From the NCBI GenBank assembly GCA_006503475.1, contig RSEH01000379.1, forward strand, positions 1-30,782: a DNA stretch of 30,782 nucleotides. Reading direction: 5' to 3'. A program made the translations under genes and the position numbers. The stretch is from Stentor roeselii. Lineage: Eukaryota; Ciliophora; Heterotrichea; Heterotrichida; Stentoridae. The notes beneath the pieces are model-generated. The model saw nothing but the letters and a program-made list of their open reading frames with translations. It was not told where the DNA came from and did no database searches. Shown in pieces: positions 8,401-30,782 of this stretch (its first letter is position 1; the number at the start of each line of letters is the position of its first letter).

Positions 8401-11400
8401 CCATTAAAAATTACGACGAATTATGGAAACTTGTCAGTCTCAGCAAGGAAAAAATCGACTCGTGGATTGGAACTCTTGTAAGAGAACTCGATCCTGATGA
8501 AATCGAACGGCAAGGACGACTTATGCAAAATCAAGCAAGGTCTCTTTACTACAGACTCAAGGAAAAAGCACCTAAACCTGCTGAAGTCGCACAGTTAACT
8601 TTAAGTGACAGTGAAAAGTTCATGAGAAATATTCCAATCATGAAAATCGTCTCAACAAGAGGTCTTGAAGAGAGACACTTCGAGAAAATCAATAAAATTT
8701 TAGGAAAGCCTTCAGGAACTTTTAAAATTGATGACACTTCAGTTTTCAAACATCTTCAAAACCTGGAACTTGAAAGTCATATAAATGAAATTGATGAAAT
8801 TGCACAGTCAGCATCAAGAGAGTTCAGTAATTATAAAATGTTGGAAAAGATGGAAAAGGACTGGGAGCCGATGAAGTTTGAGTTGAAAGAATGGGGAGAA
8901 ACCAAGACTTACATTTTACTTGGAGCTGCTGTGGAAATCATTCAAACTTTGCTTGATGAGCAGATTTTAACCACCCAGACGATGAAAGGGTCTCCTTATG
9001 CTGTGGTTTATTTGAACAGGATTAACAAGTGGGATGAGTGGCTGAATCTCGCACATGATGTCATTGAAGTCTGGATCAAAGTTCAGGCCTTGTGGATTGG
9101 ACTTGAACCTGTCTTTGCTAGTGCTGATATTCAAAAGCAACTTGCTAAGGAATCTGCTATTTTTAAAGATGCTGATAATAACTGGCATAAGGTCATGGAT
9201 GCCACTTTTAAAGATACTGCTGTTACTTCTGTTACTAGAATTGATAACTTACTGCAGACTCTTAGACATTGTCATGAAAGACTTGAAATTGTTCAGAAGG
9301 AACTTAATAATTACCTGGAAAAGAAAAGACTCTTTTTCCCGAGGTTCTTTTTCCTGTCAAATGAAGAACTTTTATCTATCCTTAAAGAAACGAGAGACCC
9401 CACAAAAGTCCAGCCGCATTTAAAAAAATGTTTCGAAGGTATAAAAAGTTTGAAATTCGACGACGAACATAAAATCTCAGCAATGATCTCTCAAGAAGGA
9501 GAAATAGTAGAAATAATCCGAATAATCGACCCAGCAAATGCAGAAGGTGCAGTAGAGCGTTGGTTGATAGAAGTAGAAGAATGCATGTTAAAAAGTACTC
9601 GAGAAATCATAGTAAAAGCTTTAAACGACTACCCAAAACGTGAACGTCGTGACTGGGTCTGCAACCACAAAGGCCAAGCAGTGCTTTGCGCAGGGATGAC
9701 TTTCTGGACAAGAGGAGCAGAAGAAAAATTAATAAACAGCGGTAGAAAAGGTCTAGCTGAATACGGCCAAGAGTGTACAAAAATCTTAAACGACGTGGTA
9801 ACCCTCGTAAGAGGCGACATCTCAGAACTAGTCCGTTGCACCTTAAAAGCCCTGATCGTCTTAGACGTCCACAACAGAGACGTGATCGTCGACCTTGCCA
9901 AGAAAGGCATCGACGACAAAAACGACTTCGGCTGGCTTGCTCAGCTTCGATACTACTGGGAAAACGACAACTCATGCATCCGCATAATAAACGCGCAACT
10001 GCCTTATGGATATGAATATTTAGGAAACTCTGAGCGACTTGTGATCACTCCTCTTACTGACAGATGCTATAGAACTCTTTGTGGCGCACTTGACCTTTAC
10101 TATGGAGGAGCACCTGAAGGACCTGCAGGGACTGGCAAGACTGAAACTGTGAAGGACTTGGCAAAAGCTCTTGCTCGAATGTGTGTCGTCTTCAACTGCT
10201 CTGATGGACTCGACTTCGAAGCCATGGGAAAGTTCTTTAAAGGACTCGCCGCCACTGGCGGCTGGAGCTGTTTCGATGAATTTAATAGAATTGACCCTGA
10301 AGTCCTTTCAGTCGTCGCCCAGCAGTTGTTAACTATTCAAAACGCGATTAAAGAAGATAAGACTGAATTTGTATTTGAAGGGACTTTGCTGCCGATAAAG
10401 AAAACATGTAATTGTTTCATTACTATGAACCCTGGATATGCTGGAAGGTCTGAACTTCCTGATAATTTAAAGGCACTTTTTAGGACTGTGGCTATGATGG
10501 TTCCTGATTATGCTCTTATTGCTGAAAATGTGCTTTATTCGTATGGATTTCATGATGCAAGGCCTTTGGCACAGAAGATTGTCGCGACTTATAAGCTTTG
10601 CTCTGAACAGCTTTCCAGTCAAAAACATTATGACTATGGAATGAGGGCTGTCAAGTCGGTTCTCACTGCTGCGGGAAACTTGAAGCGCAGGTATCCTAAT
10701 GAAAATGAAAGCATTATTATGCTTAGAAGTATCAATGATGTCAATCTTGCTAAGTTTCTTTCGCAAGATCTGCCTTTGTTTGAAGGAATCGCCTCGGACT
10801 TGTTCCCTGGAGTCAAACTTCCTGAACCCGATTATGCACATTTGTTGAATGCTCTGCAAAATCAGGTGCAACTCATGAATTTACAGTTTCCAGCTTATTT
10901 TCAGCTTAAGGTTATTCAACTTTATGAAATGGTTAATGTGAGACATGGACTTATGATTGTTGGGCTTCCTTTTTCGGGAAAAACTTCGGCTTTGAAGCTT
11001 TTAGCTAATGCTTTAACTGAACTTGCTCATAAGCAACTGATGAATGAAAATGAAGTACTGGTCTACACCCTGAACCCAAAAAGCATAACAATGAAGCAGC
11101 TTTACGGTGCCTACGACGAAGTAAGTAAAGACTGGCAAGACGGAGTTCTAGCAGCGGGTTACAAAGAATTCGCTAAAAACGAGTCAAACCAACGAAAATG
11201 GCTTCACTTCGACGGTCCAGTAGACGCGATCTGGATCGAGAACATGAACACAGTTCTAGACGACAACAAGAAACTATGTCTAACAAGTGGTGAAATCATC
11301 GCAATGAGCAACAACATGAACCTGATCTTCGAGCCGATGGACCTGGCAGTGGCGTCTCCAGCGACAGTGAGCAGATGTGGAATGGTCTACATCGAACCTG

Positions 11401-14400
11401 AAAGACTTGGGTGGGAACCTTTGTACCAATCTTGGAGAGCCCACAACCTGCCCAAGACCTTCTTCGAAGCCGAAGAACTCGAAGTCCACATGCTCATTGA
11501 CTGGATGGTCGAGCCTACTCTTCGCCAGGTCGAGACTAAAATGAAACTGATCGCGCCGATGATGAGACAAAATCTTGTCATGTCTCTTTTAAAGCTCTTC
11601 GCTGACTCACTCAAGTTCTTCAACGAGCAGACAGTCTTTGAAAGTATTGAAGAAAAGGAAAGGATAAAAATAATTGACTGTCTTTTTGTGTTTTGCATGG
11701 TCTGGTCAATAGGGGCAGCTGTTGTGTCAAATGATAGAAGAAGCTTCAACATCTGGCTGAGAAGACTCATCGGCATGGACGTCGCTGAAATAAAAAATAA
11801 AGGAAAAAAGATCCAGCCAGTGATTCCTGAAAGTGGCTCTTATTATGACTATATTTTTTTGGTTGATCAGAAAAATTGGAAACATTGGACAGAAGCAGAA
11901 ATCACTGATATTAATGCGGAAATACCTGCGAAAATCCTGCCGAATGAAATCATTGTGGCCACTGTTGACACTGTGAGATATACTTACCTGCTGGAAAAAA
12001 TGATCCTTGCAAATATTCCTCATTTGTTCTGTGGAGGGACTGGGACTGGAAAGACTGTTTACGTGAAAGACGTGATTCTTAACAAACTTAATCAAAATAA
12101 GTTTATCAATGCAGAAGTTGGCTTCAGTGCACAGACAACTGCTAACCAGGTCCAAGATACCATTGATGGAAAAGTCGACTGTCGACGTGGTCGAGGCCTT
12201 TTCGGACCCCCTCCTGAGAAGATCTGTGTTATTTTCATTGACGATTTGAACATGCCTGAAAAAGAATCCTACGGCGCTCAACCTCCCATTGAAATCCTTC
12301 GACAACTGCTGGACCAGGGCGGGTGGTATGATCGAAAAGACAACTCATTCAAAAAAATCATTGAAACTCGCTTCGTGTCAGCAATGGGACCACCAGGAGG
12401 AGGGCGAACTTTCATCACTCCTCGTTTTCAAAGACATCTCTCAATGATTTCATTGGCGGACTTCGAAGACGACACCTTGCTGAGGATCTTCAGCAGTATC
12501 TTGCATTGGTTCTTCACTAACTTCAAGTTCAGTGAAAATGTGACGAAGGTGGAAAATAAAATAGTCCAGGCAACTAGAGACATTTACAAGACTGCCATGG
12601 AAAAACTACTGCCGACACCTTTAAAGTCACATTATACCTTCAACTTGAGAGACTTCTCAAAAGTCATTCTTGGGATTTGCATGTCGGACTCACATACTGT
12701 TACTGAAACTGATGAAGTCATTCGACTTTGGGTTCATGAAATTTTAAGAGTCTTCGGAGATCGGCTTATTGATGATAATGACAGACTTTGGCTGTTAAAT
12801 CATGTCAGGGAAAGCACGAAAAGGATCTTTGGGGTTAATTTTGACAATGTTTTTAACAGACTTGACATTGATAAAAATGGAAAAGTTGAAACTCTTGATG
12901 AAATCAGAGGACTCATGTTTGGAAACTTGATGAGTCCTCCTGGAGCTTTGAAAAGATATGAAGAGATGAAGGATTACAACCATTTGTTGAAAAATTGTGA
13001 AAGTGCTTTAGAGATTTATAATGCCTCGTCTTCTAAACCTATGGATTTGGTACTTTTTTCTTTTGCTATTGAACATCTTTGCAGAGTTTCAAGAATTCTG
13101 AATCAACCTGGAGGACATGCTTTGTTGGTTGGAGTTGGAGGATCTGGAAGGCAAAGTTTAACGAGACTTGCTGCGAGTATTGCTGAGTTCGAACTGTTTC
13201 AGATTGAGTTGACCAAAAATTATGGGAAAAATGAATGGAGAGAAGACTTGAAAAAATTCATTCGAAGGGCTGGGGTTGGAGATCCTACTGTCTTTTTGTT
13301 TACGGATTCTCATATCAAGGATAAAAGTTTCTTGGAGGATATCAATACTTTGCTTAATACTGGAGAAGTACCTAATCTTTTTGAACCTGAAGAAAAAATT
13401 GAAGTTTGTGAATTGGTTAGAGGTGCTGCCAAGTCAGAAGGCAAAGCACCAGACGGTACACTAGCCCAACTCTACACATTCTTCGTATCAAGATGTAAAA
13501 AGATGTTACACATAGTCCTCTGCTTCTCTCCAATAGGAGAAGCATTCAGAACCCGACTGCGAATGTTCCCATCATTAGTAAACTGCACAACAATAGATTG
13601 GTTTTCAGAGTGGCCACAAGACGCTCTTCTTTCCGTGGCTCAAAAGTTTTTGAACCCGATAGAAATGGCAGCAGAGGTCAAGCTTCAATGCGTTGAGATG
13701 TGCCAAGTCTTCCATCGTTCCACAATAGCCTGGTCAAATAAAATGCTGATGGAACTTCGAAGACATTACTACGTGACTCCAACGAGCTACTTAGAAATGA
13801 TCACGACTTTCAAAGTCCTTCTTGATGAAAGAAGAAAAGCTGTAGCGACTGAAAAACAGAAATTCGAAATCGGAAACGATAAACTCATCACTACTGAAAA
13901 TTCTGTTGAAGGAATGAGAGCCAACTTAACTGACCTTCAACCAAAACTCATTGCTGCTCAAGCTGAAACTGACAAAAAAATCGTCATCGTCGATGCGAAT
14001 AAAAAGGAAGCTGAAATCATGGAAGCTGCTGTCAAGGAAGAAGAACTTATTGCAAGAGAAGCTGCTGGAAAGGCCCAAGCGATTAAAAGTGAATGTGACT
14101 ATTCACTTTCTCTTTGTTTACCTATTCTCCAAGAAGCTATTGACGCCCTCAACGTGTTGAATAAAGACGATATTTCAAAAATCAAGAAAAGTGCAAACCC
14201 GCCTCAGATGGTTAAAGATGTCATGGAAGCCATTTGCATTTTATTCGATGTTGACCCTCCTAAAAAGCAAAATCCTGATACTATGAAAATGGAACCTCAA
14301 TGGTGGGAAGCTTCACAAAAACTAATGAGCAAAGGAGACTTTTTAAAAGAACTTCTGGCATTTAAAAAAGAAGATATCACTGAAAAACAAGTGAAAAATC

Positions 14401-17400
14401 TTCAAAAGTTTGTGACTAATCCTGACTTTAACCCGGAAAATATGAGAACTAAAATTTCTAGTGCTGCTGCTGGACTTTGCTCTTGGGTTTGTGCTATGGA
14501 AAAGTTTTATCATGTTAATCTTGAAGTCGTTCCTAAGCAAAAAGCGCAACAGGCTGCTGAAGAAGAGTATAACAAGTATATGAAAAATTTAGAGGTTAAA
14601 GAATCTGAACTTAAAGTTGTTCAGGATAAAGTTGCTGCACTTCAGAGTGATTTGGACCAGACTCTAGCGAAAAAGGATAAACTTGAGCATGATGTTGATG
14701 ATTGTAAAAGAAAACTTGTTCGTGCCCAGCAACTCATAGAAAGTTTAGGAGGTGAAAAAGTTGCCTGGAAGGAATACGCAGAGCGTTTAGGAATCGAATA
14801 CATCAACCTAACCGGAGACGTATTAATCTCCTCAGGCATGATAGCATATTCAGGTCCATTCACCGCTTACTACCGAGCCCAAATTGCAGTAGAATGGAGC
14901 AAAGACTGCCTAGATCGTAAAATTCCAGGAAGCTCTGAATTTTCCTTGCAAGCCACTTTAGGAGACCCAGTAAAAATCAGACAATGGAACATCGACGGAC
15001 TACCCCGAGACTCCTTTTCAATAGAAAACGGAATCATTATCTCCAAAGCCAGAAGATGGCCTCTGATGATCGACCCGGAGTCACAAGCAAACAAATGGAT
15101 AAAAAAAATGGAAGGAAAAGAAAACACTTTACTCGTCATTAAACTCAGCGACGACAACTTTTTAAGACACTTGGAAAACAAAATCACCTTCGGACACCCG
15201 GTTCTTCTGGAAAACGTCGGAGAAGAACTCGACCCCAGTCTTGAGCCGCTTTTGTTGAAACAAATAGTAAAGAATATCTTGCGACTTGGAGAAAGCAACG
15301 TGGAATACAACAAGGAATTTCGATTTTACATCACGACAAGACTGAGAAATCCGCATTACATGCCAGAACTCAGCACAAAAGTCACTTTGCTTAACTTTAT
15401 GATCACTCCTGAAGGACTTGCTGATCAACTCCTGGTCACTGTTGTCGCTGAAGAACAACCTGAACTAGCTAGAACAAAAGAACACCTAATTGTCCAAACA
15501 GCTGAAAACCAGAAAAAACAAAAAAACATTCAAGACAAGATCTTGAATATCATGAGTGCATCTTCTGGAAATATTTTAGAAGATGATGAAGCGATTCAAG
15601 TCCTGAGTCAATCAAAAGTCGTCTCAAATCAAATCGAAGTTGAACAGGCGAACGCGAAAGTAACAGAAGAAAAGATAGACAAGACTCGTCTGGAATACAA
15701 ACCATTCTCAGACTGCATGAGTCTTTTATTTTTCTGCATCACAGAACTAGGAAACATCGACCCAATGTACCAATACTCTCTAGACTTCTTCAACAACCTC
15801 TTCGTCAGGTCCATCCGTGAAAGCGAGCCTTCTGACGTGCTTGAAACTCGTCTAAGCAACTTAAAAAAGCACTTCACTCGAAGTCTTTACAACAACATCT
15901 GCAGGTCATTATTCGAGAAAGACCGCCTGCTCTTTGCTTTCAATCTTACTTTGAAGTTCATGGAATACGACAAAGTTCTTGACACTAAAGCTCTTCGCTT
16001 CTTGATGACTGGAGGAATTGGACTTGATGAGAAACTTCCTGAAAAACCTGCTGAGTCTTGGCTCCTTGATAAGACTTGGGCTGAGTTCTGCAGATTAAGT
16101 GATTTGGAAAGGTTTGCAGGGTTTATTGATGACTTTCGATCGAGAATTGCAAGCTGGAAAGGCGTTTTTGAACATCCTAAGATTTATGAATGTGAACTTC
16201 CTGGAAAGTGGCAGACGTATTTGTCACAGTTTGAGAAACTCTTGATTTATAGGTGCTTGAGACCTGACTCTGTTGTTGTTGCTATTACGGAATTCGTGGC
16301 TAATCATTTGGGACGGGAATTCACTCAGAATGTACCGCTGAAGATGAAAGATATTTATAAGGATTCAAGTCGAAATGCCCCGCTTATCTTTATTTTGAGT
16401 CCTGGATCTGACCCTTTTAGAACTTTAAAAACTTTTTCAGATAGTAAAAGGAAAAATTTAATTAGCAAGTCTTTGGGACAGGGACAGGGCAAGTCGGCTG
16501 AGGAAAGTATTAATGTGGCTCTTGAAACTGGAGATTGGGTGCTACTCATGAACTGTCACTTGGCCGATTCCTGGATGCCCCGTTTGGAATACATCGTTCA
16601 AAACATCGCAGCAGACAGCAAAGGTCCAGGTCGAGACTTCCGTCTATGGTTAACAAGTTACCCATCTCCAAAGTTCCCCGTAACCCTTCTGCAAAACGGA
16701 ATGAAAATGACAAACGAGCCTCCAAAAGGTTTAAAAGCAAATCTATACGGCAGCTACAACAAAGACTTCATAGCCGACCAGCATTTTTTCAACTCATGCA
16801 AAAAAGAGCTAGAATGGAAAAAGCTTTTATACGGTCTCTGCTTTTTCAACGCAGTAATCCAAGAGCGGCGACTTTACGGCGCGTTAGGTTGGAACATTCC
16901 TTACGAGTTCTCAGAGAGTGACCTAAGAATAAGTGTGCAACAACTTCAGCTTCTTCTAAATCAATACGAAAAAGTGCCTTTCGACGCTTTGATGTACTTG
17001 ACAGGTGAATGCAACTTCGGAGGGCGAGTAACAGACGACAAAGACCGTCGACTGATCATCACACTTCTGGGCGACTACTACAACGAGAAGATTTTTAAAG
17101 ACGATTACAGATTTGCCGGAATCCAGGAGTTTTTCGTGCCTCCAACAGGCGAGTACCAAGACTACATCACACAAATCGAGGGCCTTCCTAACTTCTTCCC
17201 CCCTGGGATCTTCGGGTTCCATTCAAACGCGGATATCACTAAAAACCAAAACGAAGCAAATTCAATGTTCAACTCTTTGCTCCTCACTCAGTCCTCAGGT
17301 GGTGGAGGAGGAGGAAGCGTGAGTATTGAAAGCATCGTCACGAAAATCGCTGAAGGCATCTTGGCTGACCCTCCAGAGATCTTCAACGAAGAAGAAGCCC

Positions 17401-18158
17401 AAAGAAAGTACCCTCCTTCTTACAATGAAAGCATGAACACAGTACTTACTCAAGAAATCATCCGTTTCAATAACTTGACTAGAACTGTTCAGTCCTCGCT
17501 TCAGGACCTGCTGAAAGCCATTCGAGGAATGATCCCGATGTCAGGCGCGATTGAGTTGACCTTGCGAATGCTCTTTGACGGAAAAGTCCCGAAGGCCTGG
17601 GCAGACGTTTCTTATCCTTCACTCAAGCCTTTAGGGTCGTATATAAGCGACTTGAAGCAACGTCTCGACTTTTTCAAGAAGTGGCTGATGAACGGTTCTC
17701 CAGTGATTTATGAGATTTCTCGATTTTTCTTCACCCAGAGCTTTTTGACGGGTGCTCTGCAGAACTACGCCAGGAAATACACGATTCCCATCGATGAAGT
17801 CCAGTGCAACTTCGAAATCGTCTCGATGGATAACCCGGAGAAGCCGGAAGATGGAGTTTTAATCAAAGGCATGTTTTTAGAAGGTGCTAGATGGAGCAAG
17901 AAAAAAGGAGTCTTAGAAGAATCTCGACCTAAACGACTTTTCACTGACTGCCCCATGATCTGGATTAAGCCTGCTGTGGAAATGATAGAGTTCAAGCATT
18001 ACAACTGCCCGCTGTACAAGACAAGTGTCAGAAAAGGAGAACTGAGCACCACTGGACATTCAACAAACTTCGTCATGTTCATTCGACTCGCCACTGAAAA
18101 AGACCCAAGCCACTGGGTAAAGCGAGGAGTCGCACTTTTGACCCAACTCGACGATTAA
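5451..18158 (+). CDS. Axonemal dynein heavy chain with N-terminal CCDC81-type HU domains
   Basis: This 4235-residue motor protein belongs to the monomeric inner-arm group (DNAH3/7/12-like) and would drive ciliary beating. The six-AAA ring is recognisable. Walker A motifs are GPAGTGKT (AAA1, about 1557), GLPFSGKT (AAA2, about 1837), GGTGTGKT (AAA3, about 2195) and GVGGSGRQS (AAA4, about 2561, degenerate). The AAA1 Walker B region reads CFDEFNRI. An EF-hand (DIDKNGKVETLDE, about 2473) lies between AAA3 and AAA4, as in DNAH7 relatives. The stalk coiled coils and microtubule-binding tip span about 2790-3105. The C-terminus ends RGVALLTQLDD, typical of the family. The unusual part is residues about 35-172. 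They read as two HU/IHF-like units of CCDC81 type (FVKWLLGQFDLGRAVNCPGF, and VELDLGMLGKFSGFNKAVKF), followed by a poorly conserved linker to about 370. The frame is intact throughout, with no intron, and the stop is TAA. Confidence 0.95.
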   Translation: MEDHVVQLSLEKIFALCVDRNLRGEQNSMFTVISQNTYSQCFEAFVKWLLGQFDLGRAVNCPGFGVLGYNPALDNPKAICVSLEDIFLQKYSLSFKFDERECPFPFNPGPSIKINFVGIAKTGNIEKSIVITAINGFFDMIGCLLNENLRVELDLGMLGKFSGFNKAVKFSPISKTRTAYLFGKSTVRSLMETGRSIHDKLPPIEQSFVLQDLEGKSPAGEKNKSFAYYRPQATDSKNMSIDMLSAGLNPHARISNYSSIAGDPEKMINTKYKKPQLASTRFPPVLSIFSRTLAAPVTFNKQYISPSVRIASNYNPSSKCLIIDPESRSIKFIEIDTGITLAANTNPLIPQVPTLQSNSITASGEDSRSLNYDYISKRYGHYIENEISTEVIAPIRQYWIHNILDLVPAEWHFIQKEQVELMLDEMLNEINKDYYSALRKSILDYVLKDPDQLKRLGFEYNPQPPVDYGSKPYSGLEPTEEWQTNVMMARMLMSDNLCICSPATLMLRQLWIEYETLLLIDLPQKYETLTIEEFVERQTARMAQIQTLLSNDWTQSAAGIIMEEIKEMEKDQSNTLCQAASTLMSNQLRQLITDSLKAFDQFFKEFDLKDPPHPTDMIENIPKVWPVAFLKVELASQDGKIIFSSDIKAITKKLKQIVKKIAEKSEKIYRPDQKISNDKNHYLWIVNKEDELVVAVSANVKRISSKNLDVAFESLEVYKKYSHILTDRAIIERFVSGERKRQEYSDLIEKYSNLEAEIRKTCPLHIRLNMVEVDCSDINKFLCKECDDIVNLLCVSIRNKNLERASSLYKKFEDINAFFQNHATSEQVLVEHENFKDRCRDVTIPQYFDEYRDIKDWIKLLYDLPFKIEDELIPLKSCNFWVKRIISYIQDIEVRLQGEKDTLITQLKEKRKNFGEEINVIDHEINKLRNASEKSLYREYCDQIAILKQRLEEAEEKMKEINTKEELLGWQATEFGKLEEAQKTIKNYDELWKLVSLSKEKIDSWIGTLVRELDPDEIERQGRLMQNQARSLYYRLKEKAPKPAEVAQLTLSDSEKFMRNIPIMKIVSTRGLEERHFEKINKILGKPSGTFKIDDTSVFKHLQNLELESHINEIDEIAQSASREFSNYKMLEKMEKDWEPMKFELKEWGETKTYILLGAAVEIIQTLLDEQILTTQTMKGSPYAVVYLNRINKWDEWLNLAHDVIEVWIKVQALWIGLEPVFASADIQKQLAKESAIFKDADNNWHKVMDATFKDTAVTSVTRIDNLLQTLRHCHERLEIVQKELNNYLEKKRLFFPRFFFLSNEELLSILKETRDPTKVQPHLKKCFEGIKSLKFDDEHKISAMISQEGEIVEIIRIIDPANAEGAVERWLIEVEECMLKSTREIIVKALNDYPKRERRDWVCNHKGQAVLCAGMTFWTRGAEEKLINSGRKGLAEYGQECTKILNDVVTLVRGDISELVRCTLKALIVLDVHNRDVIVDLAKKGIDDKNDFGWLAQLRYYWENDNSCIRIINAQLPYGYEYLGNSERLVITPLTDRCYRTLCGALDLYYGGAPEGPAGTGKTETVKDLAKALARMCVVFNCSDGLDFEAMGKFFKGLAATGGWSCFDEFNRIDPEVLSVVAQQLLTIQNAIKEDKTEFVFEGTLLPIKKTCNCFITMNPGYAGRSELPDNLKALFRTVAMMVPDYALIAENVLYSYGFHDARPLAQKIVATYKLCSEQLSSQKHYDYGMRAVKSVLTAAGNLKRRYPNENESIIMLRSINDVNLAKFLSQDLPLFEGIASDLFPGVKLPEPDYAHLLNALQNQVQLMNLQFPAYFQLKVIQLYEMVNVRHGLMIVGLPFSGKTSALKLLANALTELAHKQLMNENEVLVYTLNPKSITMKQLYGAYDEVSKDWQDGVLAAGYKEFAKNESNQRKWLHFDGPVDAIWIENMNTVLDDNKKLCLTSGEIIAMSNNMNLIFEPMDLAVASPATVSRCGMVYIEPERLGWEPLYQSWRAHNLPKTFFEAEELEVHMLIDWMVEPTLRQVETKMKLIAPMMRQNLVMSLLKLFADSLKFFNEQTVFESIEEKERIKIIDCLFVFCMVWSIGAAVVSNDRRSFNIWLRRLIGMDVAEIKNKGKKIQPVIPESGSYYDYIFLVDQKNWKHWTEAEITDINAEIPAKILPNEIIVATVDTVRYTYLLEKMILANIPHLFCGGTGTGKTVYVKDVILNKLNQNKFINAEVGFSAQTTANQVQDTIDGKVDCRRGRGLFGPPPEKICVIFIDDLNMPEKESYGAQPPIEILRQLLDQGGWYDRKDNSFKKIIETRFVSAMGPPGGGRTFITPRFQRHLSMISLADFEDDTLLRIFSSILHWFFTNFKFSENVTKVENKIVQATRDIYKTAMEKLLPTPLKSHYTFNLRDFSKVILGICMSDSHTVTETDEVIRLWVHEILRVFGDRLIDDNDRLWLLNHVRESTKRIFGVNFDNVFNRLDIDKNGKVETLDEIRGLMFGNLMSPPGALKRYEEMKDYNHLLKNCESALEIYNASSSKPMDLVLFSFAIEHLCRVSRILNQPGGHALLVGVGGSGRQSLTRLAASIAEFELFQIELTKNYGKNEWREDLKKFIRRAGVGDPTVFLFTDSHIKDKSFLEDINTLLNTGEVPNLFEPEEKIEVCELVRGAAKSEGKAPDGTLAQLYTFFVSRCKKMLHIVLCFSPIGEAFRTRLRMFPSLVNCTTIDWFSEWPQDALLSVAQKFLNPIEMAAEVKLQCVEMCQVFHRSTIAWSNKMLMELRRHYYVTPTSYLEMITTFKVLLDERRKAVATEKQKFEIGNDKLITTENSVEGMRANLTDLQPKLIAAQAETDKKIVIVDANKKEAEIMEAAVKEEELIAREAAGKAQAIKSECDYSLSLCLPILQEAIDALNVLNKDDISKIKKSANPPQMVKDVMEAICILFDVDPPKKQNPDTMKMEPQWWEASQKLMSKGDFLKELLAFKKEDITEKQVKNLQKFVTNPDFNPENMRTKISSAAAGLCSWVCAMEKFYHVNLEVVPKQKAQQAAEEEYNKYMKNLEVKESELKVVQDKVAALQSDLDQTLAKKDKLEHDVDDCKRKLVRAQQLIESLGGEKVAWKEYAERLGIEYINLTGDVLISSGMIAYSGPFTAYYRAQIAVEWSKDCLDRKIPGSSEFSLQATLGDPVKIRQWNIDGLPRDSFSIENGIIISKARRWPLMIDPESQANKWIKKMEGKENTLLVIKLSDDNFLRHLENKITFGHPVLLENVGEELDPSLEPLLLKQIVKNILRLGESNVEYNKEFRFYITTRLRNPHYMPELSTKVTLLNFMITPEGLADQLLVTVVAEEQPELARTKEHLIVQTAENQKKQKNIQDKILNIMSASSGNILEDDEAIQVLSQSKVVSNQIEVEQANAKVTEEKIDKTRLEYKPFSDCMSLLFFCITELGNIDPMYQYSLDFFNNLFVRSIRESEPSDVLETRLSNLKKHFTRSLYNNICRSLFEKDRLLFAFNLTLKFMEYDKVLDTKALRFLMTGGIGLDEKLPEKPAESWLLDKTWAEFCRLSDLERFAGFIDDFRSRIASWKGVFEHPKIYECELPGKWQTYLSQFEKLLIYRCLRPDSVVVAITEFVANHLGREFTQNVPLKMKDIYKDSSRNAPLIFILSPGSDPFRTLKTFSDSKRKNLISKSLGQGQGKSAEESINVALETGDWVLLMNCHLADSWMPRLEYIVQNIAADSKGPGRDFRLWLTSYPSPKFPVTLLQNGMKMTNEPPKGLKANLYGSYNKDFIADQHFFNSCKKELEWKKLLYGLCFFNAVIQERRLYGALGWNIPYEFSESDLRISVQQLQLLLNQYEKVPFDALMYLTGECNFGGRVTDDKDRRLIITLLGDYYNEKIFKDDYRFAGIQEFFVPPTGEYQDYITQIEGLPNFFPPGIFGFHSNADITKNQNEANSMFNSLLLTQSSGGGGGGSVSIESIVTKIAEGILADPPEIFNEEEAQRKYPPSYNESMNTVLTQEIIRFNNLTRTVQSSLQDLLKAIRGMIPMSGAIELTLRMLFDGKVPKAWADVSYPSLKPLGSYISDLKQRLDFFKKWLMNGSPVIYEISRFFFTQSFLTGALQNYARKYTIPIDEVQCNFEIVSMDNPEKPEDGVLIKGMFLEGARWSKKKGVLEESRPKRLFTDCPMIWIKPAVEMIEFKHYNCPLYKTSVRKGELSTTGHSTNFVMFIRLATEKDPSHWVKRGVALLTQLDD

Positions 18159-22389: not shown

Positions 22390-23988
22390 ATGGATAATTA
22401 TAAACTTCTAAAGATGATTAATGGATATCACTCGAAGATGGTCATAAAGCTATCAAGCGATTTAAACTCATTAAAATTTTTATTAAGTCTGAGAAACGAA
22501 GCTGCAACGAAAATACAGAAGTGGTATAAGTCACACAAAGCTTTTCTACGTCCACATATCAATGCTTTGGTTGCTTCTCTTGAAAATATTAGGTCACAAG
22601 CTTCAATTTTGATACAAAAAGTGTTTAAAGGGTATCAGGTGCGTTCTAGTTTGAAATTTTTGCGAAATATTCCTCAGAAAAAGCTCATTCGCTGGGTTCA
22701 TGAAGCTAGTTCAGTTAGTCTGGCAGGTACCTTTACAGAGCCTCCATGGAAGTTATTGGTATCACTAAAGCGTTGTAAATATCTAAACGAGTTCATCTCA
22801 ACAGCTCTAGTAGATTTCAAAGTGCCTCGCGGTACCTATCTAGTAAAGTTCCTAGTAGACGGAGTATGGGTGTGTGACGGTAACCTTCCTGTATCCCAAG
22901 ACATAAGCGGCAACTACAACAACGTGATAGTAATAAACGACCAAAAGGTAGGAATATCCCGAGCAATGAGTGTTCGATCCTTCCAATCAGCAGCAAATGA
23001 ACTAGCAAGTCATATAAAGACCCAGCAAATGAATTCTCCAATAATCCTAGTCAGGTCAATCAGCGGCAACCTGGAGTCTCCTCGAGGCTTCGGCTTTTTA
23101 GAAGAAGACAAAATCAAACATCCGGTCAAGTTAATCATGGCTGGGCACATGATCGCCAAGCCTTTCAGCAAGACCTCTGCATTAAAAGCTGCAGGCAGTG
23201 CCGACTCCTGGCTAATCGATGAAGACCTGCAGTTCTTCGGAGTCGCTGACGGGGTAAGTGAATGGTCGACTTTTGGACTGGACACAAGTCGATTTCCGAA
23301 TGAGTTGATGAAGAATTGCTTGAAAGTTTTAAACGAAACTGACATGAATGAAACTGAAGAGACTGACTTACTAGAAAGAGTTGTTTTAGAGGCTTCTCAT
23401 AGAGTGAACTCGTATGGATCGAGTACTTTGTTGCTTGCCATTTGTAGGAACTCTTTGCTTTACACTTACTGTCTCGGGGACTCTTCTTTCATTGTCCTTC
23501 GCAAGCGGGATGAGACTTCTTTGGTTACTGTTTACAGGTCACTTGAACAGCAGCATTCTTTTAACTGCCCGTTTCAGTTGTCGAACCTGCCGAAACCTCA
23601 TTTGTTTGAGGAACTCACCGCCAAGGGCTTCGGGAAACTTGTTTCTCTGTTGAAAACAAACTCGAAAGCTATGAACGACTCGCCTTTTGACGCGATAAAC
23701 GAAATGATTCCAATGAAAATCGGAGATATCATCATCGCCGGCTCTGATGGGCTTTTTGACAACTTGTACGACCAGGATATCATCAAAACAGCTGAAGCGA
23801 AACTTTCAATAAGAGACACGAGGCAGTTCTGTGAAACTTTAGCTGTCACTTTAACTGAAAAAGCCGTTCGTAAGGGCTGGGATCATAACTATAAGTCGCC
23901 TTTTGCTAGAAATGCCGCGAAAGCAGGGAAAAAGTGTATGGGAGGGAAACCGGATGACACGACAGTAGTTGTGGCAATCGCTACTTAG
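22390..23988 (+). CDS. IQ-motif / glycogen-binding / PTC7-type PP2C phosphatase fusion
   Basis: This 532-residue protein combines three modules. Residues about 38-57 (AATKIQKWYKSHK) and 70-90 (ASILIQKVFKGYQVRSS) are IQ motifs that would bind calmodulin or a calmodulin-like protein. Residues about 100-185 read as an AMPK-type carbohydrate-binding module (VSLAGTFTEPPWK, YLVKFLVDGVWVCDG, NNVIVIND). Residues about 250-532 are a PP2C phosphatase of the PTC7 group. Here FFGVADGVSEWSTFGLD holds metal-binding D287, AGSDGLFDN holds D453, and GGKPDDTTVVV holds D522/D523. The family removes phosphate from Ser/Thr. The extra modules suggest an enzyme brought to glycogen-like storage polymer and controlled by Ca2+; that is inference. 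It is a single frame with no intron, stops with TAG, and ends 19 nt from the stop of the convergent gene. Confidence 0.88.
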   Translation: MDNYKLLKMINGYHSKMVIKLSSDLNSLKFLLSLRNEAATKIQKWYKSHKAFLRPHINALVASLENIRSQASILIQKVFKGYQVRSSLKFLRNIPQKKLIRWVHEASSVSLAGTFTEPPWKLLVSLKRCKYLNEFISTALVDFKVPRGTYLVKFLVDGVWVCDGNLPVSQDISGNYNNVIVINDQKVGISRAMSVRSFQSAANELASHIKTQQMNSPIILVRSISGNLESPRGFGFLEEDKIKHPVKLIMAGHMIAKPFSKTSALKAAGSADSWLIDEDLQFFGVADGVSEWSTFGLDTSRFPNELMKNCLKVLNETDMNETEETDLLERVVLEASHRVNSYGSSTLLLAICRNSLLYTYCLGDSSFIVLRKRDETSLVTVYRSLEQQHSFNCPFQLSNLPKPHLFEELTAKGFGKLVSLLKTNSKAMNDSPFDAINEMIPMKIGDIIIAGSDGLFDNLYDQDIIKTAEAKLSIRDTRQFCETLAVTLTEKAVRKGWDHNYKSPFARNAAKAGKKCMGGKPDDTTVVVAIAT

Positions 23989-24007: not shown

Positions 24008-26904
24008 TTAATCATTGGAGATAAATGAATATGCGAGTTTTCCTCGAGTTTTTGATACTTTTTTCAGAACTTCTCTGATAAAATCGAAGACTTTTTCGTA
24101 GTCTGAAGTTTCGTCGATTATAAATGAAGGGATTCCTTCATCTTGAATGAACTCCAGTAGTTCTTCAGGAATCGCTTCAGGTTTATATAAAACTATCAAG
24201 TTTATGAATTTTTCTTGAAAAAGTTCCAAATTTTTCAGCTTTGCAGCGCCTTTTGTGTCAGGTTTCTGCAAGATCAAAGAAATCACCACCTTTGAAGTTG
24301 AGTCGTCTTCGAAGCTGAAAACTGAATTAACAAGAGAATCATACAAATTAACAAAAGTGACTTGTTTGCATGCGTTTTTTAGAAGGTCTTCCAGGTCGAA
24401 TTCAGGTAAATCTCGTTGAACCACGTCTAAAGCCATGTTTTTATACCGGTCATCAAGTAAAATTCCTATTTTAAACCGAACTTTATCAATATCAGTCTTA
24501 AAAAACTCGACCAAGGCGTTATTAAGTTTATTTTCAGCTTCAATTTCATAAACCAATACAAAAAGAACAGAACATTCAACACTCGACACATTTTCCTGAA
24601 TCTGCTGAAAGTCTTTTGCATTTTCAAGAAGGTCATTTTCTTCCATCAATCCACTCAAACTTGTAACAGCCTGAATCCTGACAGCAGGGTCGAAGTAGTT
24701 CCCATATTCCTTCATAAATCTTACAATAGCAGAAGTCAAGCAATGTGCAGCTTGCTGAATTTTTTCAAGTTTTAAAAGAATTTTTCCTCTTCTTAAAAAC
24801 ATTTCTTGCATCAGGATGTCTTTTTCATGACTCACGCTGTTGAGTATGAAATGCTTTGTACTTGACGAGGACTCTTCAAGTTTAATTGAAATTCCGATGC
24901 TTCGAAGTCGTGTGATGTCGATGTCGACCTCTACCACCTGGCCCGGCTTGATTTTAACCAGTTCGTCTTTCACGACTTGTAAAAGTTGAAGACTTGAATG
25001 AAAATATTTCAGGTATTCAAAGATCTTTGCCATGCTCAGAAGGACTTTTATCATTCGGAAAAAGTGAGTGCGAGTTGAGATGTAATATTCAAGAACTTCT
25101 AATTGGAACTTGTTGATTTCTTTTAATTTTTTACGGGACAGAGAATTTTCTTCGATTGAATCGATGAATTGAGACTCGAGGATCATGCAGAGTTGCTCTT
25201 TACGGTCGTTTATGTTGGCTCTTAGGAAAAGCTTTTGATCTTCCCAGCTTCTTTTAGTCCGACCTGTTCTTTTGCGAAGAAGAGAAGATTCAGAAGAGCT
25301 GAGGGCTTCATGGTCTTTTTCTATTTTTTCCACTTTTTGGTAGAGTTTTTCTGTGTTTAGAAGGGAGCACATGTAAGCGTCTTTCGCCATTTCGAAGTTT
25401 TTTAGAAGGAAGAAAGAGTTTCCGATAAGATTTTTAGTTACTGCCATTCCTCTGTAGTTTTTCAGTCTTTCAAAAAAATCATGAGCTTCTGTTAAGTTTC
25501 TTATTCGAGTCTGTAGATTTGGGTTCATTAAAAAGTGAGGATCTATGAATTTTTCAAAAGTCGTTAAGAGCTTTAAAGAATTAATGACTTGATTTACTTC
25601 TCGATTGTATAAACTCAGAGTTTCTGCTTCAGTCGCTTTTCCTGAAAGAATTTTAGAAATGATGGAAATCGGAGAAAAAATCTTGTCACTGATAACTTTA
25701 GAAAGTTTTATTGTTGCGAAGATTGAAATAAGAATAAAACTGATGAAAATAGACATTTGAATGAAGATAATGTCAAGAACTTTCTCTATGATATTGTTGA
25801 GACCATATAGCATGAGTCTCTCGTTTTTTATTACTCCAGCAAGATATCTATCTGAGCTGGTAAATGAAGAATTTCCAGTGATTCCTGATAATTGCAAAGG
25901 AGTGAAAGATCCCATAAAGACCGAGTTAAATCCTGTGTATTTCACTCCTTCAGTCTCATTCGTTACTTTTCCTGCAGTTTTTTCACATTCTTCTTGAAGT
26001 TTTAAATCCTCATCAAAGAGTCCTTCACAAAGCTGCTTATTATAAAACTCATGATTTTTTGATAAAAATATCAAACTCGACTGATCCGAAGTATGAACAG
26101 TAAAGACCAGGTCTTCAAGAGACTCTTCAGAAAGACTATCCAAGATGTTCTGATGAAACAGAAGATAATGCATGTAAAAAACTACGACTCCGTATTCAAA
26201 TCCAAAACTCACTGAAAAATATTCACATTCATGAAGCAAGTTGATATTATCATGCTTGTGACTTTTGTAAAGCTCAGTCTTTTGAGGGTCATATTTCGAT
26301 TCGCAGTCAAGAACAAGATTCATATCAAGAGCTGGATACCGAAATTCAAGTCCATCGTCCAGAATGACTCCCAATTGAAAAATTCCAGGTCTTGTGCTGT
26401 TATTTGTTAGAAACATATAAACCATATCATATGTACCCTTCATAAACTCATTAGTTATTTTCAATGCTTCATAATCCAAATCATTCAATTCATCAAGACT
26501 TTTCAATTTTTTCGAGTACCAAACCGACTGTGAAAAGTTGGTTTCTAATTAAATTTACCTGAAGCTTCTTCAAATCGGACAAAAGTTGAGTCAAGGACTT
26601 GAGACTGCTTTAAAGTGCCTTGTTGCACCCCTTCATAAGTCTTTGCGATGAAAACCAAGCTGAAAGTGACCTTAATATTTCTTACAGAATCAACCAGGAC
26701 AGTAAAAGAATCAGCGAAGCTATTCGAGACATATTCGAAATGTTTCATATCATGATCCCTTAAATCATCTCTAGAAGTATTCAACCAGGAAAGATGTTCA
26801 ACAAACATAATAGCGACACTGCAAAGAGCAGAGAAGACAATTCCTATAATCAAAGGCGAAATCGTAAAATATTGAAGTCTTTTGCTAAGGTTGACCTTTG
26901 CCAT
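24008..26904 (-). CDS. Two-pass receptor-like protein with TPR and degenerate VWA region
   Basis: Joining two frames across the 14-nt intron at 26545-26558 gives 960 residues in phase. A first membrane helix (about 13-36) is followed by a roughly 330-residue extracellular region with several cysteines and N-glycosylation sites, in the position of a Cache-type sensor. A second helix (about 371-395, IIFIQMSIFISFILIS) comes next, then a short HAMP-like segment. Cytoplasmic parts include TPR-like helices (about 479-511 and 695-725). From about 770 to 945 lies a VWA-like alpha/beta domain (VLFVLVYEIEAEN, FINLIVLYKPEAIPEELLEF). The VWA metal-site motif DxSxS is absent, so metal binding is doubtful. 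No kinase or cyclase domain is present. I infer a signalling receptor or scaffold; the ligand is unknown. The start is the ATG at 26904, 18 nt after the upstream gene's stop. It stops with TAA. Confidence 0.8.
26545..26558 (-). other. Spliceosomal intron of 14 nt
   Basis: Read on the minus strand the segment is GTAAATTTAATTAG. The upstream frame stops at TAG inside it (26545-26547). The downstream frame, followed backwards, stops at TAA inside it (26549-26551). Removing exactly these 14 bases joins ...EEAS to ETNFSQSV... in phase and gives one protein. Neither frame stop lies outside the GT...AG segment. Other GT...AG pairs nearby give the wrong phase. Confidence 0.8.
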
Positions 26905-26922: not shown

Positions 26923-28650
26923 TTATCGATTATCAGCCCACTCATTAAAGAAAATCTTGAAATCTTCATTAGTTGTTTGACATGAAAGTATAAAAGGATG
27001 GTTCAACAATTCTTTCGAGTTCGCCCTTTCTTTCGGGTCTTTAACAAGACACTTGCTGATAAAATCATTAAATTCTTCAGACCATTTTTCAGGTTTTTCC
27101 AGTCGAGGAGCGTCGTTTTCCATGATTTTTCCGATGATCCTTTGTTGTCCATCGCGATAATGAGGAGGCTCTCCATGTGCGAGTTCAAAGGCAACGATTC
27201 CTAAACTCCAGACATCGATATTCATGCTGTACGTCTGTTGTGATAAGATCTCAGGAGGCATCCAGAGAAGAGTTCCAGCGAAAGTGTTTCGATTTTGATG
27301 ATTTCTCTCTAATTGTGTAGCAAATCCCAAGTCTCCAACTTTTACTTGCCCTTGCTGGTTGATGAGAATGTTGTCACTTTTAATATCTCGGTGAATGCGT
27401 TTTTGACTGTGAAGGAAATAAATCCCTTGCAAGATTTCTTTTAATACATAAGCGATGATGTTCTCTGGAATCATTCCTTGCAAGTCTAAGATGATGTCGG
27501 CTAAGGAGCATGACATGAGTTCTTCGATTATCCAGAACTTTCGAGAGATTTTGAAGTATTCCAGGTATTTTATTATGTTTGGGTGAACGGAGTTCATTGT
27601 TAGAATCACCTCGTTTTTTATTAGGGATTCTTCTTGGTCTGACTTGGAATCGATTATTTTTATTGCCACGTAATCTTCTGTTCCTATTTTTTTACCGATG
27701 TAAATTATGCCTGAACCGCCTGTTGCTAGTTGTTTTACTATGGTGTAGTGGTCTTCAGGGTTTTCTGAATTTAAAGGCACTTGCTCCAGCTCAGGGTAGA
27801 TTGATGCACGGATTGGATTTACTACTTTAGGCTTTATTGAAGGAAGGCTTATATTCGCTTTTTTACTTTTTACGCTCACGCCTGAGAAGTTGTCGTCTAA
27901 GGGCTTTGGAATTTTTTGTTCTTCATTTGATGGATTTTCTGGTTTGTTGGCATCGATTTGACTTTCTTTTATCGCTTTTTTAAAATCTTCTTCATATTTA
28001 TCTTTGATTCTTTTTTCCTCCTCATAAGCTAGTTTACTCATTTCTAAAGCTTCTTGCATGGATTGGTCTTCTTCTAGGTTTTTTGGATGTTTCGGATTTA
28101 ACATGTGTTTAGGTGCTCCATAATAGGGAGCATATACAGTTTGAGGTCTTTCATCGAAGTTTTCTTGTGGGATAAGGCCTGGATTTCTGTTGTGCAAATG
28201 CGGTGATGATTGAATATTGTTATAAGGGGAAGGGTTGCTAAAGGGCCACAAATACCCACCGATATTACCAAAATATCCATTTTTAGGCTCCTCCTGGTTG
28301 TCTAAAATTTCAGGAGAATAATCTTCTCTTTCTCTTTCAAATGCTTTTTGTTTTTTATTTTTATGGATGCTTTTCATTTGATTTTCAAAGAAACCCTTAA
28401 AAGTGATTTCTTGTTTATTCATGATCTGTGATTCTGTGATCATAAATATACAATTGTGACAGTGTCTTCTTCTCATGAAAAATTCAATAAATCCTGGCTC
28501 GAGTTCTGTGCATTCTTGACAACATCTCGATTCTGTTTAATCCTTACTGCAAAATTTGCACGTCTTCAAAGAATCATTAGGTCTTTCACAGATAAAACAT
28601 GTTGATTTTCTAGGAGAATTCGCTGAGATGTGAAAATAGTTTCCATACAT
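26923..28650 (-). CDS. Zinc-finger, tandem-UIM, STE20-like protein kinase
   Basis: With the 15-nt intron at 28533-28547 removed and the ATG at 28650 used, the protein has 570 residues. Residues 18-62 form a cysteine-rich finger with four CxxC pairs (18/21, 31/34, 39/42, 59/62) ending RRRHCHNC, of FYVE/RING-like cross-brace type. A linker follows, with two ubiquitin-interacting motifs: DQSMQEALEMS (about 189-203) and EEDFKKAIKES (about 215-228). The kinase domain spans about 296-548, with glycine loop ATGGSGIIYIG, lysine VAIK (326), IHRDIKSDN (Asp 417), DLG (435) and GTLLWMPPEIL. This points to an active Ser/Thr kinase near the PAK/STE20 group. Reading from the internal ATG at 28476 would lose the finger. 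The decayed copy lacks that Met but keeps the finger, so the longer form is preferred. An open extension continues to 28865 but has a TAA at 28720. It stops with TAA. Confidence 0.85.
28533..28547 (-). other. Spliceosomal intron of 15 nt
   Basis: On the minus strand the segment reads GTAAGGATTAAACAG and contains an in-frame TAA. Removing it fuses ...LKTCKFC to KSRCCQEC in phase and completes a finger of evenly spaced CxxC pairs. The same 15 bases occur unchanged in the decayed copy at 30645-30659. The length matches the 15-nt introns known in heterotrich ciliates. Confidence 0.85.
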
Positions 28651-28865
28651 TCTATATTTATTTATATATTTATCTAAAGAATCAAGAATGTCTATAATAA
28701 TGTAATTTTCTTCTAAATTTTAATTTATTTCTCTTAAACATTTTCTATCTTTAGGATGTCTTTCGATGATGTCAACATTTGGGGCTTTCATAATTTCACT
28801 ATTTTCTTATACTAATCATCTTTCCTATTTAGTGGATTTTCGGACTTATTATTATTCTCGCCCAT
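28651..28865 (-). other. Possible longer 5' end of the kinase gene, with 14-nt intron and a TAA
   Basis: Upstream of 28650 the minus strand stays coding-like. An ATG at 28865 opens MGENNNKSENPLNRKDD. A 14-nt segment GTATAAGAAAATAG (28799-28812) contains stops of both flanking frames and, when removed, joins to YEIMKAPNVDIIERHPKDRK in phase. The frame then continues to 28650, broken only by TAA at 28720-28722, in the context REIN-stop-NLEENY. No GT...AG intron covers this TAA. Either the gene starts at 28650 and this is an old, now silent, 5' end, or the TAA is an allelic change or sequence error, or it is read through. Confidence 0.5.
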
Positions 28866-29515: not shown

Positions 29516-30358
29516 TTATATACTTGAAGTTAGCTTTAAAGTCCCTTTCACCAAGTCTAAATATTCCAAAGACTTCGCAAAAGTCAGTCTCTGACTCTCA
29601 TCATAACTCAACAAAACCTTTAAAAAGTCCTTAGTATTATCATTGAACTCAAGATTTTCAATATCCTGATACATCTCCTGATGTGTAGTGTTCTTAACAT
29701 TTTTGTGAGTAAGAAATTGATAAAAAACAATTCCTAAAGAATAAACATCCGATTTCTCTGGATAAAATCGTTGCCTAGCCTGTTTTTGAGGTGAAAGCCA
29801 GCCATCTTCATTACTGCTGAACTTCATCTTGATTAAAGTAGCATCAAAGTCAATGATTTTTAAGACCCAGCCTTCATTTAGGTCTTTCACAAGAATGTTG
29901 TGAGGCTTGATGTCATTGTGAATAATACGATTTTCAGACATAATTGCGAAAGACGAAATAAGTGAATGCACAATGTCAAGGAAAGTATTTTCATTTATTT
30001 TCGCTTTAGTTGCTGATCTTATGTTAATGATTTCGTTTAAATCGCTTGGGTACCAATCCATGACAAGTTTAACTGAGTTTTCTTCAAGCACAGTACCGTG
30101 GTACCTGATGAAGCAGTTGGAATCAGCCGATAGTAATGAAAGAGTCTCTAAGATTCATCTCATTTTCTAGTTCTTTTAGTTCCTGCAAATTGTTTCGGGT
30201 AGTGTATGATTAAATACAAACTTCTTTTTGATTGTAAATTCCTTTCGAAATTTTAACTCTAGTTTCTTGCTTCTTGGCTGCGTAGATGACTTCGTCTATA
30301 ATTCGAATTTCGGATTGTCTAATGAAGCAAGTTAACGAAGAAGATACTCCTGGGTTTG
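29516..30358 (-). pseudogene. Broken protein kinase gene
   Basis: The intact part (29516-30115) covers most of a protein kinase domain. It includes IIHNDIKPHNILV (HRD changed to HND, catalytic Asp kept), IIDFDATL (DFG changed to DFD), DVYSLGIVFYQFLTH and a normal C-lobe ending before TAA. Upstream, the N-lobe is still readable but damaged. A one-base frameshift near 30150 falls in the region of helix C. A TAA at 30210-30212 stands exactly where the VAIK lysine is expected (VCI-stop-SYTT). Further upstream the frame is open to about 30358 (IRIIDEVIYAAKKQETRV). No short GT...AG intron removes either lesion. A shorter product from an internal start is possible but would lack the ATP-binding lobe. 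It is not a close copy of the kinase at 26923. Confidence 0.7.
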
Positions 30359-30375: not shown

Positions 30376-30782
30376 CCATATTACTAAGAAATCCATTTTT
30401 ATGTTCTTCTTGATTGGCTAAAATTCAGGAGAATAATCTTCTCTTGCTCTTTCAATTACTTTTTTTTTTATTTTTAGAGGTGCCTTTCATCTGATTTTCA
30501 TAGAAACCCTTAAAATTGATTTTTGTTTATTCATTATCTGTGATTCTGTGATCATAAATATACAATTGTGGCAGTGTCTTCTTCTCTTGAAAAACTCAAG
30601 AAATCCTTGCTCGAGTTCTGTGCATTCTCGACAACATCTAGATTCTGTTTAATCCTTACCACAAAATTTTCACCTCGTCAAACCATAAGAGAGTTTAAAT
30701 TTTACAGATAAAACAAGTTCCCATACTTGAACAATTTACTAAGCTATTGTAAAATTTTCCTTACATTCTATATTTAATCTTA
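30376..30782 (-). pseudogene. Decayed second copy of the zinc-finger 5' end of the kinase gene
   Basis: This segment resembles 28261-28660 at the DNA level over roughly 400 bases and runs off the window end. It keeps the finger core (CCRECTELEQGFLEFF, then RRRHCHNCIFMI) and the identical 15-nt intron at 30645-30659. Lesions include a one-base shift just before the second CxxC pair, a TAA upstream of it, and a deletion in the linker (after REDYSPE) that leads to TAG. The Met at 28476 in the other copy is Lys here. The homology ends near 30376, directly upstream of the broken kinase, so the two may once have been one gene with finger plus kinase. Confidence 0.75.
30645..30659 (-). other. 15-nt intron preserved in the decayed copy
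   Basis: The sequence GTAAGGATTAAACAG is identical to the intron at 28533-28547 and sits at the same place in the finger. The flanking exon bases have diverged. Confidence 0.7.

Follow-up and report, generated by a model that had tools for sequence, protein, structure and literature searches.

The minimum length usually quoted for an intron is 15 bases, and a minus-strand gene of Stentor roeselii raises the question of whether a segment of 14 nt can be a spliceosomal intron. The window, by which we mean the whole stretch of DNA that was analysed, is one entire contig of 30,782 nt from a genome of 44.39 Mb in 522 contigs. The standard genetic code fits this DNA; a dynein heavy chain frame of 4235 codons, for example, is read without stops. 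In the gene, an upstream frame runs from ATG 26904 to TAG 26547-26545. The frame downstream of it has its stop codon at 24010-24008 and reaches upstream as far as TAA 26551-26549. Both limits lie inside the same 14-mer, GTAAATTTAATTAG, and removal of this segment in phase 1 yields a single protein of 960 aa plus stop. The location at 26545-26558 and the count of 960 codons, as given in an earlier note on this DNA, are therefore right (Table 1).

Read on the minus strand, the 14-mer begins with GT (26558-26557) and ends with AG (26546-26545), as a U2-type intron would, and it holds two candidate branch adenosines, A9 at 26550 and A10 at 26549. Alternative joins were sought among segments 6-199 nt long whose first base lay between 150 nt before and 60 nt after the site. 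The 14-mer was the sole GT..AG segment below 50 nt that joined the two frames; with other ends, joins below 50 nt were made by AT..AC segments (14, 20 and 35 nt) and by one GC..AG segment (38 nt). Pfam analysis of the window protein returned a sub-threshold TPR match in exon 2 and nothing more, and its earlier description as 'two-helix receptor-like' was a call made by eye. With high probability, in our view, these 14 nt are a genuine U2-type spliceosomal intron that belongs to a minor class beside the main 15-nt class. This reading, which the earlier note had proposed, is supported by the introns of paralogues, by further 14-nt cases, by a length-specific excess and by the scarcity of indels.

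Table 1. Features of the window and the set of 14-nt joins. Positions are those of the window unless a locus or contig is named.
Feature	Position	Strand	Remarks
Putative 14-nt intron GTAAATTTAATTAG	26545..26558	minus	Phase 1; letters, frames, motif test, paralogues
Exon 1	26559..26904	minus	115 codons + 1 nt; N-terminal hydrophobic segment by eye
Exon 2, stop codon included	24008..26544	minus	Relatives on C81, C89 (two), C91, C97, C103, C171
15-nt intron GTAAGGATTAAACAG of the neighbouring kinase gene	28533..28547	minus	Yardstick of the common class
15-mer identical to GTAAGGATTAAACAG	30645..30659	minus	Within an incomplete, diverged duplicate of the kinase 5′ part, by eye
Cys-rich kinase N-terminus	28533..28650	minus	
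Shortened kinase-domain frame	29516..30091	minus	
Repeat of the kinase 5′ part	~30400..30782	minus	
Dynein heavy chain frame	5451..18158	plus	4235 codons
AMPK1_CBM protein	22390..23988	plus	
14-nt joins (5)	Window; L011:683-696 (C10:10683-10696); L011:4889-4902 (C10:14889-14902); L017:2779-2792 (C80:12779-12792); C97:55396-55409 (L031)		Motif-join test

A length of 14 nt lies below the intron lengths reported in the literature compared here, for which excerpted text of each paper was used. In Stentor coeruleus, 8173 of 8806 introns are of 15 nt and 633 of 16 nt, with the branch adenosine mostly at position 10 or 11 (PMC9505925). The window intron falls outside this heterotrich 15/16-nt class. 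The dominant class of the present genome is likewise of 15 nt with A at position 10, although a few 15-nt calls lack that A. Common to both species are the standard code, GT..AG ends, A/T-rich introns and the dominant 15-nt length, and in both the branch adenosine, here a candidate, is usually at 10, followed by a 5-nt tail. They differ in the side class, which is of 16 nt in S. coeruleus and of 14 nt here (PMC9505925); no 16-nt intron was called in 311 kb by the gene models or the motif-join test described below.

Other short introns in the excerpted papers are longer. Those of Blepharisma stoltei, also a heterotrich but one in which UGA encodes Trp, are predominantly of 15 and 16 bp, and the excerpt mentions no 14-nt class (PMC9942806). 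Loxodes magnus resembles S. roeselii in having very short ciliate introns, but with a longer mode (17 bp) and a negligible share below 16 bp, although its RNA-seq mapping allowed introns as short as 10 (PMC11441545). In Mikrocytos mackini, 217 of 224 introns are of 16 nt and 7 of 17 nt; they are similarly numerous, near-uniform in length and strongly conserved in sequence, but belong to a mikrocytid and not to a ciliate (PMC10245619). The comparators cited in a 2025 paper were Stentor, at 15 nt, and Bigelowiella, at 18 nt (PMC12316389). No 14-nt spliceosomal intron appeared among the matches listed in the open-licence PMC literature, as judged from titles and the starts of abstracts. In two papers the wording '14-nt intron' or '14-bp intron' stood for an insertion and a deletion within introns, and these were set aside. 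The Arabidopsis genome provides a warning on unverified tiny introns: introns annotated at up to 30 bp were unsupported, and the smallest verified one was of 59 bp (PMC6161759).

A 14-nt class was tested for in 311,462 nt of sequence, the window included and a duplicate locus (L027) left out. Matches to the motif GTRA-N-A-NN-YAG, with the A sixth from the end, were collected at lengths of 10-22 nt, and a match was scored as a join if it connected two open frames, each of at least 30 codons, with a positive coding score on both sides. In this sample, which is not random (it holds the window, its gene relatives, and stretches of C10 added after 14-nt cases were found there), joins made up 5 of the 22 matches of 14 nt and 25 of the 66 of 15 nt, compared with 2 of 378 at the eleven control lengths (10-13 and 16-22 nt). 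The difference between 14 nt and the controls was significant by Fisher's test (P = 6 × 10−6), also without the window's own case (P = 8 × 10−5). In a blind subset of 20 stretches (200 kb), picked before anything was known, 3 of 13 matches of 14 nt were joins; for 15 nt the figure was 13 of 47, and for the other lengths 1 of 242 (P = 4 × 10−4 for 14 nt). All five joining 14-mers match GTAAANNNAANTAG, with AA at positions 9-10. The 5:25 ratio of 14-nt to 15-nt joins overstates the 14-nt class, because motifs of the GTAAANNNAANTAG type have 7 matches in the examined sequence, against 1.6 expected from the genome count.

A gene model scoring dicodons under a strict penalty called 17 introns of 15 nt, five of 20-33 nt and a single one of 14 nt, which was that of the window, with a margin of 2.4 nats; this model missed short first exons, such as that of the AP-1 sigma gene considered below. 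A lenient model made 26 calls at 15 nt, seven at 14 nt and a single one at 12 nt; 14 calls fell at 20-26 nt and none at 13, 16 or 17 nt. With nine control dinucleotide pairs, the lenient model made 0-4 calls of 14-nt introns and 0-5 of 15-nt ones. Among its seven GT..AG calls at 14 nt, those in L003 and L032 are without the motif, and that at L011:4116-4129 resembles a gene boundary, the frame ahead of the NSUN6-like gene there being presumably NADAR-like. A motif-free census of frame-joining segments found 9 joins at 15 nt, compared with at most 2 in controls, but at 14 nt the 4 joins by GT..AG were equalled by the control AA..AG and were not significant. The census was rejected as a test of the class; it is too noisy and counts gene-gene boundaries as joins, three of them judged so by eye (L011:4116-4129, L004 index 712 on the minus strand, and L004 index 3189, of 13 nt).

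Genome-wide, the pattern GTAAA-Nk-AANTAG occurs 225 times at 14 nt, 369 at 15 nt, 161 at 16 nt and 148 at 17 nt, and its reversed control 420, 373, 528 and 511 times, respectively. Relative to 17 nt, which is the coding-phase match for 14 nt, the pattern is over-represented at 14 nt (OR 1.85, P = 4 × 10−7), as it is relative to 16 nt (OR 1.76, P = 2 × 10−6). The excess corresponds to 70-100 sites, a count that is not independent of the candidates, because the AA motif was derived from them (7 of the 225 matches lie in the examined sequence). From these counts, 14-nt introns may number about a hundred in the genome.

The class was not seen with other motifs. The first 100 of 159 matches to GTAAGN{1,7}ACTTAG showed no excess at 14 nt (7, 14, 3, 66, 1, 5 and 4 matches at 12 to 18 nt, in that order), nor did GTAA-N5-AYTAG (460, compared with 506 at 17 nt). 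GTAAANNNABNTAG, which lacks A10, was background-like, with 196 matches, at least 9 of them from one tandem array, against 754 for the reversed control. The array (G000:C95:91523-91733, period ~21 bp) repeats GTAAACAAATGTAG and inflates that count. Because all three patterns show none, the 14-nt class shows up only where AA occupies positions 9-10. Pattern counts did not separate A9 from A10 as the branch adenosine.

Removal of the 14-mers restores a continuous conserved protein, as expected of U2-type introns, not only in the window gene but also at the AP-1 sigma and NSUN6-like sites. Without L017:2779-2792, AP-1 sigma residues 1-145 align gap-free with AP-1 sigma-1A chains (4p6z, 1w63; E = 1.6 × 10−44), and the joined protein scores 163.6 bits in Pfam over profile positions 1-140, compared with 155.2 bits with five X at the join. 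Without L011:4889-4902, the NSUN6-like product scores 133.9 bits, compared with 125.4 with a five-residue insert. Its junction is gap-free against 5zvd and 2yxl; against NSUN6 itself (5wwq), gaps occur just downstream of the junction. For the TPR gene L031, the TPR_12 score was 37.4 bits for the joined protein; five X reduced it to 24.0, and the downstream part by itself reached 21.6. The best PDB match of the joined protein (E = 0.074) was unconvincing. The joined product of L011:683-696 had no Pfam matches.

Relatives of the window gene carry introns close to the site. When the genome was searched with exon 2, there were 8 matches, one of them the window itself. Seven sequences, the window and six relatives, were aligned after removal of putative introns; one of these (L034) is partial, at a contig end, and a further partial relative (L029) was left out. 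L028 and L034 have phase-1 introns of 15 nt (GTAAGACTTAAGCAG and GTAAGACTTAGGCAG) at most one residue from the window site, as measured from a shared SVW; two columns separate the sites in the alignment, which is poorly conserved there. The window intron shares its phase and, to within one residue, its position with introns of homologues, as a U2-type intron may. The remaining four aligned relatives have no intron there, and 15-nt introns elsewhere only. Because L028 and L034 keep 15-nt introns at that place, the window intron is probably, and most simply, such an intron from which one base was lost.

Separately, a phase-0 intron of 15 nt occupies one alignment column in four of the aligned copies (L028, L030, L032 and L033), and the unaligned L029 has a flank like theirs; the models of the window gene and of L031 lack it. 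On the aligned sequences, this pattern is read as intron loss or gain inside the family.

The lengths of the paralogous introns would also fit another explanation, anticipated in the earlier note, that all these introns are truly of 15 nt and that the assembly dropped one base in each. Base-calling errors gather in homopolymer runs, and there is a run of eight A in the NSUN6-like 14-mer and of five A in the 14-mer at C10:10683, but the longest run is of 3 bases in the window 14-mer and of 4 in that of AP-1 sigma. The 236,784 coding nt include 5827 A/T runs of at least 4, 2308 of at least 5 and 94 of at least 8. Six candidate frameshifts were proposed there at the loosest gene-model setting and none at two stricter settings, bearing in mind that a gene model can disguise a frameshift as a gene boundary. 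The losses expected in 30 introns are 0.006 (95% bound), or 0.011 if the six loose candidates are real; five were seen. Furthermore, the genome-wide excess sits at 14 nt, with 15 nt counted separately. Because ~237 kb of coding sequence is without the indel rate needed, assembly error appears unlikely as the source of the 14-nt introns, and we give the dropped bases little credence.

It could also be that the window gene has no intron, and that the frames are connected at the overlap (+10/+11), either because a base is missing or because the ribosome slips by −1, with about five extra residues kept. At the end of the 14-mer the frames do come within one base of each other, so one −1 step would suffice as a join. 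Against this, L028 and L034 have introns at that place, GT..AG ends and one motif are common to all five sites, and a five-residue insert costs 8.4-8.5 bits in the AP-1 sigma and NSUN6-like proteins, whereas proteins freed of the 14-mers are gap-free across the join. These observations make an intronless gene very improbable. Least probable of all, by a small step, would be a chance GT..AG segment joining the frames of neighbouring genes or of a decayed gene. Cases of this kind do exist: by eye, half of the four census joins at 14 nt (L011:4116-4129 and L004 index 712) resemble gene-gene boundaries, with ATG directly after the join. However, chance would hardly account for the concentration of motif joins at 14 nt, in the whole sample (5/22 vs 2/378) as in its blind part (3/13 vs 1/242), or for the continuity of protein domains at three of the five sites. 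The 844-codon downstream frame of the window gene is, moreover, open and has conserved relatives.

For the preferred reading, a 14-nt U2-type intron, RNA splicing is inferred from DNA and protein homology, and the branch adenosine is a prediction. The genome contains a U2 snRNA gene (C18, 142.6 bits), as the major spliceosome requires. U1 and U6 would read GUAAA, U2 would pick A9 or A10 of the AA doublet, and the AG at positions 13-14 would be the acceptor. Branching at A9 would give a 9-nt lariat loop, one shorter than in the 15-nt class, and a 5-nt tail; with A10, the loop would stay at 10 nt and the tail would drop to 4 nt. The 10-nt loop of Stentor has already been debated as a steric problem, according to the excerpted text (PMC9505925). 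We lean towards a distinct 14-nt class with its own tight consensus, GTAAANNNAANTAG, accommodated by a 9-nt loop or a 4-nt tail. If true, this would be the shortest class of spliceosomal intron known, and its branch geometry would be tighter than in the 15-nt class; its members, if RNA confirms them, would be among the shortest messenger-RNA introns known. An intron size floor constrains how the branch helix, the lariat and the 3′ splice site pack in the active site, and a class one base shorter, so far linked to AA only, would offer a substrate for locating the limit in loop or in tail spacing.

A second 14-nt candidate had been proposed in the window at 28799..28812 (minus strand; GTATAAGAAAATAG). 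It is unsupported as an intron: its removal leaves a TAA after 43 codons and then a further stop, and the 15-nt intron of the kinase gene explains the kinase N-terminus better. Once that 15-nt intron is removed, the kinase N-terminus is Cys-rich, with CxxC pairs recognized by eye and no Pfam match. The shortened kinase-domain frame matches the Pkinase profile at positions 69-258, and the repeat of the kinase 5′ part near the contig end, identified by eye, is partial and diverged. On the plus strand, the dynein heavy chain frame matches 15 Pfam families, mostly dynein motor domains, and a further protein combines a glycogen-binding domain (AMPK1_CBM) with an IQ motif and matches PP2C weakly.
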